Source: Terriglobus sp. RCC_193 (GTDB lineage: Bacteria; Acidobacteriota; Terriglobia; Terriglobales; Acidobacteriaceae). Taken from it: a DNA stretch of 64,000 nucleotides. The translations under genes and the position numbers were made by a program. The stretch lies in assembly GCF_041355105.1 (NCBI RefSeq), contig NZ_JBFUPK010000002.1, positions 1,494,037 through 1,558,036 of the forward strand. The letters are read 5' to 3'. Positions 56,049 to 64,000 of this stretch are shown piece after piece. The notes below the pieces were generated by a model, which did not search any database, was not told where the DNA came from, and saw only the letters and a list, made by a program, of their open reading frames with translations. Within the stretch, counting starts at the first letter, position 1. Each line of letters starts with the position of its first letter.

Positions 56049-57496
56049 CTAGCATTTTGCGCGTGACGACCTGTCGGGATGCGCATGAAGCTCAGGCGGA
56101 GCCGCGTTCCCGCCATGCTCTTCGAGATATGTGCAGGCGCTGATAATGTCCCGGGCAAGTTCTTGTGCAACGTTGTGGTTGATATGCGGGCGCAGGACGA
56201 CACGAAGGCTGCGGACCGCTTCGGCATTGGGCGGCATCGTGTAAGCAGAGAGCACCCAGCCTTTTTCGCGCACCTTATTGGAGACGTCAAATTCATTGAA
56301 GCGCGTTACTTTTTTGTTCAATGTAACTGCGACGACAGGGATGCGTTGCGTGGTGTTCATGATCTCGAAATAGCCGCTCTGGACGAGGGTTTCGCGCAGC
56401 GCAATAGCATTATCGAGGGTGTGTTGCATAAGGCGTTTGTACCCTTCGAAACCGAGGCGCAGCATCATGTAGTACTGCACGGCGATCTGGAATCCATTGC
56501 GAGAGAAGTTGAGTGTCGCGGTAGGCATCTCTCCGCCCAGGTAATTGACATAGAAGACCAGGTCCTCATGAAAGACCTTGCGCTCGCGGAAGACAACCCA
56601 GCCAAGGCCCGGCGGGACGAGACCGTATTTATGGCCCGAGGCATTGATGGATTGCACGCGCGGCCAGCGGAAATCCCACTTGTAATCCGGGTAGAGAAAT
56701 GGATTGACGAAGCCACCGGATGCGCCGTCAATATGCATGGGAATATTGTGGCCGGTGCGCTTCTCGTAGTCGTCGAGCCACTTATGGATTCCTTCGAAGT
56801 CGTCGTCTTCTCCCGTGAAGGTCTGTCCCGCGATCGCTACGACCGCGATTGTGTTCTCGTCGACATACTTATCGAGGTCTTCGGCGGTCAGGCGATAATT
56901 TCCCGGCTTCAGAGGAACAATGCGCGGCTCCACATCGAAATACTTGAGGAATTTTTTCCAGACAATCTGAACGTTGCCACCCGTGACCATGTTCGGCCGC
57001 GAAGTATCTTTACCGGCTTTGCGACGCGCCTCGCGCCAGTTCCACTTATGCGCAAGTCCTGCGAGCATGCAGGCCTCGGAGGAGCCAACGGTGGCGGTGC
57101 CATAGATGTCGACACCCTTAGGGCCGTTCCAAAGTTGATGGAGCCACTTGACCATGCGTGTCTCCATGGCGAAGAGACGTGGATACATGTCGTGGTCAAT
57201 ATAGTTTTGAAGAGGTTGCGCTGCGCGGTTTCGAGAGCCTCTTCTTCGGCGAAGGTGGTCACGAAAGAACTCATGTTCAAGACAGGATTAGTGTCCGTCC
57301 ATTCATCGCTGAGCACAACATATTCAGCTGCGCGTGCCGACATGCCGACTTCTGGAAAGTGATCTTCGGGAATCTCCAGATTGAACTGGTCGTAGGGGGT
57401 GACCTTTTCAAGCGAGGTTGGGATATCGGCTTCAGTCTTGTGTGTCAGCTTCTTTGCAGCGCTATCGCTGGCCTTTTTGGTGGCAGTCTTCGACAT
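56049..57496 (-). pseudogene. gadB: Glutamate decarboxylase (GadB/GAD), interrupted by one-base deletion
   Basis: PLP enzyme: L-glutamate to GABA + CO2, taking up a proton. The N-terminal part (about 97 aa from the ATG at 57496: EADIPTSLEKVTPYDQF...ETAQRNLF) and the rest in another frame (HDMYPRLFAMETRMVKWLHQLWN to the stop at 56049) together give about 480 aa, the normal length. PLP lysine in INASGHKYGLVPPGLGW (the Lys of SGHKYG), substrate pocket HIDGASGGFV and TATVGSSEACMLAG. The break is in the run TTTT at 57205-57208: adding one base would give KNYIDHDMYPR. GGGAG precedes the ATG. It is transcribed after the antiporter gene (64 nt gap). Confidence 0.88.
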
Positions 57497-57559
57497 GGAT
57501 GAAATCTCCCAATAGCGGAATGATGGCGCAGCTTCGGCGAGCCAACTGCGCTGTTGGCC

Positions 57560-59248
57560 TTACTTGAGAAGCATGACGAGGAACATGCCCCAGATGGTGA
57601 GCAATGTATTTCCGACAGCGTAAGTAACTGTGTATCCGAGGCCGGGAACCTGACTGCCTGCGGCGTCGCAGATCATGCCGAGAGCTGCGGTCGTGGTACG
57701 TGCTCCAGCGCATGCACCAAGAAGAATCGCCGGGTGAAAACGAAAGAGATACTTTGCAATGAACATGCTGAGGATGAGCGGGACCGACGTTGCGAAGATG
57801 CCCCAGAGGAAGAGGCTGATGCCAAGATGGCGCAGACCAGCGACGAAACCGGGGCCTGCTGTGAGTCCGATCACCGCGATGAAAACGTTGAGGCCAACAG
57901 AGTTCATGAACCAGACGGTAGGTTCAGGAATGCGGCCAAATGTAGGATGAATGGCGCGAATCCACCCTGCGATGATCCCGGCAACGAGTGCTCCACCCGC
58001 AGTGGAAAGTGTGAGTGGAATGCCAGCGACCTTGAAGACGATGGCGCCGATAAGTGCGCCAATGGTGATGGCAAATCCGATGAAGGCAACGTCCGCGATA
58101 TTGCTGGGGCGATCTATGTTGCCAAGCGCGGCAGCTGCAAAGTTAATATCCTGCGTACGCCCGACAAGTGTGATCGTGTCGCCGCGCTGAAGTGTTGTGT
58201 TGGCAAGTACAGGGATCGGGGTTTCCGTGGGGCCGCGACGAATGGCGCGGACATAAACTCCACGTGCTGCGGGCAGAGAGGCGAGTTCGGCAAGCGTCTT
58301 GCCATCGACGTCTTTGTTGGAGACAAAGACATCCACTCCTGACACCTCGGAGGCGACAGCAAGAAGCTCGGGATCATCGACCTCGGTCCCCCTGGAGCCA
58401 AGTGCTCCGATAAGTTGATTCCGCTGGCCACCCACGGCAACGATATCGCCCGGCTCAAGGATGAAGTCGAGTTTTGCTTCTTCGATCTTGCCGTTGCGGC
58501 GAATGCGTTCCACAAAAAGGCGATAGCCACTGGGTTCAAGAGCTTCCGCCTGGCCAACGGTCTGTCCTGCGACAGGACTGTCCGACGGAACCCCGAAAGC
58601 GCGTAGCTCGAACTGGTGCCACTGCTGTCCTTCGCCTGTGCTGCCGCCGTACGTCGCTTCGTACTCCTTGCATACAGCCACGAGATCAATGCGGAGAAGC
58701 CAGGGGCCCACCTGCGCAAGCAGGATGGCAGAGCCGATGGTTCCGAAGATATAGGTAACTGCGTATGCGGTTGGCATCGCGTCAAGCATCGTCTTGACTT
58801 GATCCGGTGGTAGATTCAGACGATTGATGGCGTCTGTGGCGAGTCCCATCGATGCAGAAATAGTTTGAGAACCGGCATAGAGTCCGGCGGCTGAACCAAT
58901 GTCATAGCCAGCAATCTTCGCCGCAACCCATGCCGATGCCAGACAGAGAACGCACTCAATGGCAGCGAAGATAGCCTGCGGGATACCGTCTTTTGCAATC
59001 CCTCGAACAAACTGCGGCCCGACGCCATAGCCGACAGCGAAGAGGAACATAAGAAAGAAGACGGACTTCACCTGTGGAGATACGATGATTCCAAGTTGCC
59101 CGATAAGTACAGCGGCAAGCAGTGTCGCAGTTACAGAGCCGAGAGCGAAGCCTTTAAAGCTCTTACCGCCAACCCAGTAGCCGATGCCAAGCGAGAGAAA
59201 GATGGCGATTTCGGGGTAATGTCTTAGCGTCTCTGTAAACCAGTCCAT
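57560..59248 (-). CDS. AspT/YidE-like amino-acid antiporter
   Basis: Amino-acid:amine (aspartate:alanine) exchanger-type transporter. The 562-aa product from the ATG at 59248 has 5-6 transmembrane helices (about 5-180: [37 protein letters not shown]), a central cytoplasmic region with two RCK_C/TrkA-C-like domains (about 205-275 and 290-370), then 5-6 more helices (about 380-560, [25 protein letters not shown] end). Both halves resemble each other, as in AspT. GAGAGG lies before the ATG. It is first in the operon with gadB, so it may exchange glutamate for GABA. No frame break. Confidence 0.88.
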
Positions 59249-62759: not shown

Positions 62760-62781
62760 TTCTTCCAAGGAGCTACGAATC

Positions 62782-64000
62782 ATGAGCACCAAAATCAACA
62801 CGAAAAAAGTAGCAGGGCTCAGCCCTTTTGAAATCAAAGACGAACTCATTAAGATTGCCGGAAGCAGCGATGCCCACATGCTGAATGCGGGTCGCGGCAA
62901 TCCTAATTTCCTTGCAACCGTGCCACGCTATGGATTCTGGCAGCTGGGCTTGTTTGCCATGCGTGAGGCGGAGCGCTCCTTTGCCTATCTACCCGAAGGC
63001 GTCGGCGGATTCCCCAGGCTTGATGGAATAGCAGAACGCTTTGAGATATTTGTTCATGAGAATCGCGATACGCCTGGCATTAAGTTTCTTGCAGCGGCCG
63101 TTTCTTATGTCCGCGACCAGCTTGGCCTAAGTGGATCTGCATTTCTGTATGAGATGTGCGAGGGTATTCTCGGCTGTAACTATCCTGTCCCGGATCGCAT
63201 GCTCAAACTATCCGAGCAGATCGTGGCGCGTTACATCCATCAGGAGATGATTGGAAACTATCCGTTCCTCGGCAAGTACGATCTCTTCGCCGTGGAAGGT
63301 GGAACTGCGGCCATGGCATACATCTTCAACACCATGAAGGAGAATGGCCTCATCGAAGCGGGAGATTCCATCGCGCTCGGACTTCCTATCTTCACGCCTT
63401 ACATTGAGATTCCTGCGCTCAGCGACTATCAGCTGCACCAGGTCAGCATCAACGCTGATCCGATTACCTGGCAATATCCTGCGCTCGAACTCGATAAGTT
63501 GATGGACCCGAAGGTCAAGGCGTTCTTCCTGGTCAACCCCAGCAACCCTCCTTCGCGCCGCATCTCGCAAGAAGGACTGGAGCAGATTGCGCGCATTGTC
63601 GAGAAGCGCCCTGACCTGATCATCCTCACGGACGATGTCTACGGCACCTTTGCAGACGACTTCATTTCGCTCTTCGCCATCTGCCCACATAACACCATCC
63701 TGGTGTATTCCTTCTCGAAGTATTTTGGCGCAACCGGCTGGCGACTCGGCGTAATCGCAACGCATAACGACAACGTACTGGACAAGAAGCTTGCTGCACT
63801 TCCCAGGAAGACGAGGGAGGCGCTCAACAAGCGCTATAGCTCGATCACAATCGAACCCGAGAAGCTGAAGTTCATTGATCGTCTGGTCGCAGATAGTCGC
63901 GCAGTGGCGCTCAACCACACGGCCGGGCTCTCCACGCCACAACAGGTGCAGATGGTCCTGTTTTCTCTCTTCGCATTGATGGATACCAGCGACGACTACA
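62782..64000 (+). CDS. asdA: Aspartate 4-decarboxylase (bifunctional aspartate aminotransferase/beta-decarboxylase), 3' end outside window
   Basis: PLP enzyme: L-aspartate to L-alanine + CO2, taking up a proton. The visible 406 codons start at the ATG at 62782 with AAGGAG at 62767-62772. Motifs: [23 protein letters not shown] (about 35-57), [32 protein letters not shown] (about 155-187), [12 protein letters not shown] (about 252), DDVYGTF (about 283) and the PLP Lys in [15 protein letters not shown] (about 313). It is continuous and unbroken in the window. Family length is about 530, so about 125 residues are missing beyond 64000. It follows the broken antiporter by 22 nt and is probably its operon partner. 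Confidence 0.92.

Follow-up and report, generated by a model that had tools for sequence, protein, structure and literature searches.

A probably acquired, decaying decarboxylation cassette in Terriglobus sp. RCC_193 places an AspT-type antiporter gene beside gadB

Accounts of glutamate decarboxylation in acid resistance usually name the APC-type protein GadC as the antiporter, and each decarboxylation by GadB (glutamate decarboxylase) or AsdA (aspartate 4-decarboxylase) consumes one proton. In the AspT-AspD aspartate:alanine proton-motive cycle of Tetragenococcus halophilus, an AspT-family antiporter is instead paired with aspartate 4-decarboxylase, and AspT exchanges a monovalent amino-acid anion for the neutral product electrogenically (PMC9508256). 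The AspT family also includes a glutamate exporter (PMC9527358), so glutamate has precedent as a substrate in this family. We analysed 64,000 nucleotides of the genome of Terriglobus sp. RCC_193 (family Acidobacteriaceae), hereafter the window, which end in a cluster of five genes for two AspT-type antiporters (AspT1 and AspT2), GadB, AsdA and a DcaP-like outer-membrane porin. Similar to the Tetragenococcus cycle, the cluster pairs an AspT-family antiporter with aspartate 4-decarboxylase; unlike that cycle, it has a second AspT type beside gadB, it includes a porin, and its aspT2 and asdA are broken. Similar to GadB-GadC systems, it has a glutamate decarboxylase above the TIGR01788 cut-off with an adjoining antiporter gene, but the antiporter is AspT-type and not APC-type.

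Our preferred interpretation, held with moderate confidence, is that the cluster is an acquired and now decaying decarboxylation cassette of about 8.6 kb, apparently for acid resistance, with a partner-flexible AspT1-type exchanger able to serve GadB. A sequence-only reading had proposed aspT1 and gadB on the minus strand and porin, aspT2 and asdA on the plus strand, diverging from a 238-bp spacer; profile matches and open reading frames (ORFs) supported these identities and this order, and the spacer measured the same length (Table 1). AspT1 scored 659 bits against the TIGR03802 cut-off of 547, with two matches each to Asp-Al_Ex and TrkA_C, and solved AspT chains aligned over its residues 12-561. 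The main GadB ORF scored 461 bits against the TIGR01788 cut-off of 380. AsdA matched TIGR03801, and AspT2 matched TIGR03802 as broken pieces only. For the porin, a broken piece scored 22.5 bits against the PF19577 gathering cut-off of 27, compared with 61 bits for an intact relative in L018, and both pieces together covered nearly the full length of intact relatives. A simple scan of 59200-59520, spanning the divergent spacer, found no sigma-70-like promoter.

Table 1. Features at the right end of the window (aa, amino acids; positions beyond 64000 refer to the contig continued past the window).
Feature	Coordinates	Strand	Remarks
tRNA-Met (CAT)	55916..55991	+	ARAGORN; left edge of extra segment; segment-free sites L111, L112
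Extra segment, ~8.63 kb	55992..64000, on to ~64623-64635 in contig		absent from sisters G005, G008
gadB, glutamate decarboxylase	56049..57496	-	broken; ORFs 56909-57496 and 56049-57188 differ in frame
aspT1, AspT-type antiporter, 562 aa	57560..59248	-	intact
Divergent spacer, 238 bp	59249..59486		
DcaP-like outer-membrane porin	59487..61029	+	frame change near 60260
aspT2, second AspT-type antiporter	61057..62759	+	TAG 61354-61356; frame change near 61890-61917
asdA, aspartate 4-decarboxylase	62782..64000, beyond window end	+	C-terminal frame change near 64230-64257 (contig)

Intact versions in other genomes show that the placement of gadB beside an AspT-type antiporter gene is genuine and recurs. 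Other genomes carry the pair: gadB was present within 4 kb in 16 of the best 80 of at least 458 confirmed AspT1 relatives from a species-level collection (7 of the 16 without asdA), and again in G087, a genome of the same family. These 80 are close relatives and not a fair sample, and eight of the matches (L032, L034, L037, L039, L076, L081, L083, L094) lay within 4 kb of a sequence end. Partners within 4 kb were AsdA together with an Orn/Lys/Arg-type decarboxylase (27), AsdA alone (23), an Orn/Lys/Arg-type decarboxylase alone (13), AsdA with glutamate decarboxylase (9), glutamate decarboxylase alone (7) and none (1); the AsdA of L050, encoded in a single frame with AspT, was entered into these counts manually. 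Loci with glutamate decarboxylase alone belonged to Paraburkholderia (L034, L035, L036 and L041, with L036 and L041 from one strain), Pararobbsia (L046), Eremiobacterota (L076) and Roseomonas (L103); aspT-asdA-gadB loci were L031, L033, L039, L040, L042, L043 and L053. Among 200 genomes sampled from the family, GadB was above cut-off in 14 and any AspT match was seen in 15, both occurring only in the window's genome (G000) and G087, where they lie side by side. Across the phylum, AspT1-like matches at E <= 1e-60 were found in 8 of 396 genomes, one being the window's own; the fetched stretches of the other seven, one a contig of only 5.2 kb, contained no gadB, asdA or Orn/Lys/Arg-type decarboxylase gene.

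The GadC profile TIGR00910 was applied to 17 genomes with the pair (G000, G087 and 15 chosen for an AspT and gadB locus). GadC was above cut-off in none of the 17, the best score being 83 bits against a cut-off of 673.5 (41 bits in G000), in agreement with the proposal that an AspT-type protein stands in GadC's place. As a control, the profile scored above cut-off in 2 of 14 known genomes and matched at all in 5, including E. coli and Lactococcus. Nearly all GadB matches over cut-off (19 of 20) lay within about 2 kb of an AspT gene, the exception being a broken copy in G579, and in G580 and G581, with two gadB copies each, every copy had its own AspT1-type gene.

AsdA was above cut-off in 15 of the 17 genomes. 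The genome search found none above cut-off in Roseomonas nepalensis (G591), and in Eremiobacterota genome G589 it gave no more than a 55-bit fragment where a contig ends. In most cases the AspT2 type accompanies asdA. In G580, G581 and G586, aspT1-gadB stands apart from a second module, aspT2-aspT'-asdA, so each half of the island also occurs on its own. The aspT2-aspT'-asdA module was also found in G578, G582 and G588, but there the AspT1 type lies within an aspT-asdA-gadB row, and in G584 (Caballeronia cordobensis) all five genes follow one another as aspT2-aspT'-aspT1-asdA-gadB. Two genomes, G577 and G585, depart from a strict module rule: their contig with aspT2-aspT' carries no asdA above cut-off.

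In an intact form of the cassette, the DcaP-like porin would let in glutamate and aspartate, and the AspT-type antiporters would take up the amino-acid anion in exchange for the product of its decarboxylation. GadB (glutamate to gamma-aminobutyrate, GABA) and AsdA (aspartate to alanine) would each use a cytoplasmic proton, which would raise internal pH, and because the exchange is electrogenic, proton-motive force would be built. These transport substrates and this physiological role are predicted from sequence. In gadB-only settings the AspT1 type would most likely exchange Glu for GABA, as suggested by gene order, recurrence and the lack of GadC above cut-off. A wider reading, which we regard as evenly balanced, is that the AspT1-type clade is partner-flexible, working with AsdA (Asp/Ala), GadB (Glu/GABA) or an unclassified Orn/Lys/Arg-fold decarboxylase, and that it takes the role of GadC in soil Burkholderiaceae, Roseomonas and Eremiobacterota. 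If true, a glutamate acid-resistance system independent of GadC would, with the G087 pairing included, have had two or more origins. From the recurrence of the GadB-AspT pair in genomes with no GadC above cut-off, one would predict that soil bacteria have a second Glu/GABA exchanger, unrelated to GadC, and the automatically assigned label "aspartate-alanine antiporter" may describe some members of the AspT family too narrowly. With AspT structures solved (8xw5 and others), specificity can be tested directly.

Alternatively, AspT1 could be a plain Asp/Ala antiporter that gained its gadB neighbour through shuffling of an ancestral aspT-asdA-gadB operon that lost asdA, with GadB supplied by another importer or by internal glutamate. 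Operons of the order aspT-asdA-gadB do occur in close relatives, and the trees group L036 (aspT-gadB) with L040 (aspT-asdA-gadB) as sisters with full support. AspT1 also scores above the Asp/Ala equivalog cut-off (TIGR03802), and no residue column separates gadB-only from asdA-only AspT1s. This history does not readily account for aspT-gadB as a unit in genomes (G580, G581, G586) that carry asdA in another module with antiporters of its own, for the aspT-gadB pair in G591 without AsdA above cut-off, or for the distant AspT adjoining gadB in G087. We therefore consider the Asp/Ala alternative rather unlikely.

Several observations weigh against a dedicated link between AspT1 and GadB. The AspT1 type occurs with AsdA, an Orn/Lys/Arg-type decarboxylase or both, and without gadB within 4 kb, in 63 of the 80 relatives. 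In the family sample, 12 of the 14 genomes with GadB above cut-off gave no match to AspT, so in this family gadB can do without AspT. The 17 genomes in which GadC was sought were selected for having the pair. Nor did the gadB-linked AspTs form their own clade, as had been anticipated from the sequence alone: in a tree of 144 AspT rows, the 9 gadB-adjacent rows (gap of at most 500 bases) needed 7 changes, at least 5 of them forced by well-supported branches, and in a careful tree of 49 rows a single clade of gadB-linked AspTs was rejected (approximately unbiased test, p = 0.00185). Comparison of 6 gadB-only with 12 asdA-only AspT1s revealed no alignment column without a shared residue between the groups. 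With neither a clade nor a separating column, gene order need not mean Glu/GABA specificity.

The larger tree was built from AspT ORFs of 500-700 aa; it did not include the L070 main ORF or the AspT of L026, which is split, used the first 563 residues of the long ORF of L050, and carried a long-branch warning that included AspT2 and the AspT at L018 9765 (G087). In the approximately unbiased test the AspTs of L034 and L127, which are one gene, were left free as an identical pair; the L127 copy bore the label of an asdA-linked paralogue. The trees indicate that the AspT-gadB pairing has been made or broken repeatedly. In the third transmembrane helix (TM3), arginine R76 of a solved chain is G in AspT1; the aligned position was rejected as a discriminator, as G was seen in 8 of 9 gadB-adjacent and 39 of 54 asdA-adjacent rows.

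The layout of two decarboxylase modules held. Five lesions were found in four of the five cluster genes, and aspT1 was the sole intact gene. Taken beforehand as one gene at 56049-57496, gadB is instead two ORFs in different frames with a break near 57197-57209. The porin and asdA likewise have one frame change each, whereas aspT2 has a stop and a frame change, leaving the asdA-aspT module with both genes present and both broken. Compared with its relatives, the porin lacks a few residues at its break. The asdA break lies just past the window, and beyond it the C-terminal end of the protein continues in a different frame. With four genes broken, two working modules are unlikely in this genome. 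The cassette as a whole is probably not working here, to judge by the loss of function that such lesions would be expected to cause.

We considered whether the breaks are sequencing or assembly errors in a cluster that is fully functional in the living organism. As a control, we used 43 syntenic ORFs of the sister genome G005 that match window positions 1-54.4 kb. Of these, 32 aligned over at least 90% in a single frame without stops, and the 11 flagged were judged by substitutions per codon position and by the window's own ORFs. Four of the 11 were real genes with third-position substitutions, open in the window and differing at their ends, and five were wholly or partly antisense or in another frame. 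The remaining two were short (168 and 124 aa in G005) and not open in the window (871-1374 and 12218-12587); with several frame-changing indels relative to G005 and little coding signal, they are probably not genes. No long gene with a mid-gene break was present among the 43 control ORFs, in contrast to five lesions in the five-gene cluster, so the lesions appear specific to the cluster and a general sequencing fault is unlikely. Some of the breaks could be single-position frame changes, and the two short ORFs also show that frame-changing indels occur elsewhere in the window. The in-frame stop and the missing porin residues are harder to attribute to errors, and we judge this explanation quite improbable. 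The cassette is more plausibly decaying in the window's genome.

The intact state of aspT1, alone among the five genes, could also mean that selection keeps it for a role of its own, for example in amino-acid export, with decay confined to the other four genes. If lesions struck it at the same rate as those four, a gene of its size would escape by chance with a probability of about 0.26. The survival of aspT1 is thus no evidence of selection, and an independent role of this kind seems very improbable indeed.

The extra segment was probably acquired horizontally. From tRNA-Met to the downstream flank there are 38 bp in sister G005 and 168 bp in sister G008, and compared with the segment-free sites of these sister loci the window's genome is about 8.63 kb longer. 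Among 19 genomes of the genus, AspT was found in the window's own and in none of the 18 others searched. The opposite history, loss from both sisters, is a less simple alternative. A far-edge repeat test detected no second copy of the last 23 tRNA bases in L005 with up to 3 mismatches allowed. The fraction of G and C was 0.545 in the island, 0.576 in window positions 1-55900 and 0.564 in the downstream flank, a difference that is weak evidence.

Among the fetched loci, which were gathered by AspT, the closest relatives were Burkholderiaceae, with identities of up to 86% for the main GadB ORF (Paraburkholderia), 76% for AspT1 and 72% for AsdA, compared with 50% between this AsdA and its intact counterpart in G087, a genome of the same family. 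Pieces of AspT2 were 55-79% identical to Paraburkholderia L125, which has an AspT2 ortholog at 1643-3325. Porin pieces were about 42-52% identical (one 32%) to acidobacterial or same-family loci, and no Burkholderiaceae locus fetched had a DcaP match, these loci having been gathered by AspT and not by porin. The cluster looks composite, because the relatives of its porin are acidobacterial or same-family while its other genes are nearest to Burkholderiaceae. A transfer from Burkholderiaceae would agree with these identities, which suggest the direction and the donor.

Two further loci resembled the cluster in gene content. In G087 (L018 8249-16614) the same five gene types are arranged as asdA-aspT-DcaP-aspT-gadB, but all are open and in one direction. 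Its gadB-side AspT is 36% identical to AspT1 and far off in the tree, on a branch flagged as long. The G087 pairing suggests a second recruitment and an independent assembly of the same gene set. The Ensifer canadensis pT173d cluster (aspT, Orn/Lys/Arg-type decarboxylase, aspT', porin, asdA) similarly has two AspTs, two decarboxylases and a porin; in that cluster, however, an unclassified PF01276 protein replaces GadB, and the porin is Porin_4 and not DcaP. A literature search that did not extend to subscription papers and preprints found no paper on an AspT-GadB pair. Three papers that mention "AspT" together with "glutamate decarboxylase" or "gadB" were rejected: in PMC6828651 and PMC12787904, "AspT" denotes aspartate transaminase, and in PMC12862378 a tRNA gene.

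Other AspT neighbourhoods were also observed. Relatives of the PF01276 decarboxylase lay within 4 kb of AspT1-type genes in 40 of the best 80 loci (L031-L110). The 908-aa Orn/Lys/Arg-fold decarboxylase at L027 8930-11656 matches PF01276 and exceeds no NCBIfam cut-off (best 167 bits against 1167); an acidic amino acid would fit as the substrate of such an enzyme beside an AspT1-type partner. In G044, of the same family, L023 4560-13504 has AspT with a fumarase-like lyase, a type II asparaginase, a DcaP-like porin and a glutaminase, and no decarboxylase was matched there by the queries used. In Candidatus Burkholderia verschuerenii (L050 10001-13390), aspT and asdA form one open frame of 1129 aa, possibly a fusion or drift in a decaying genome.

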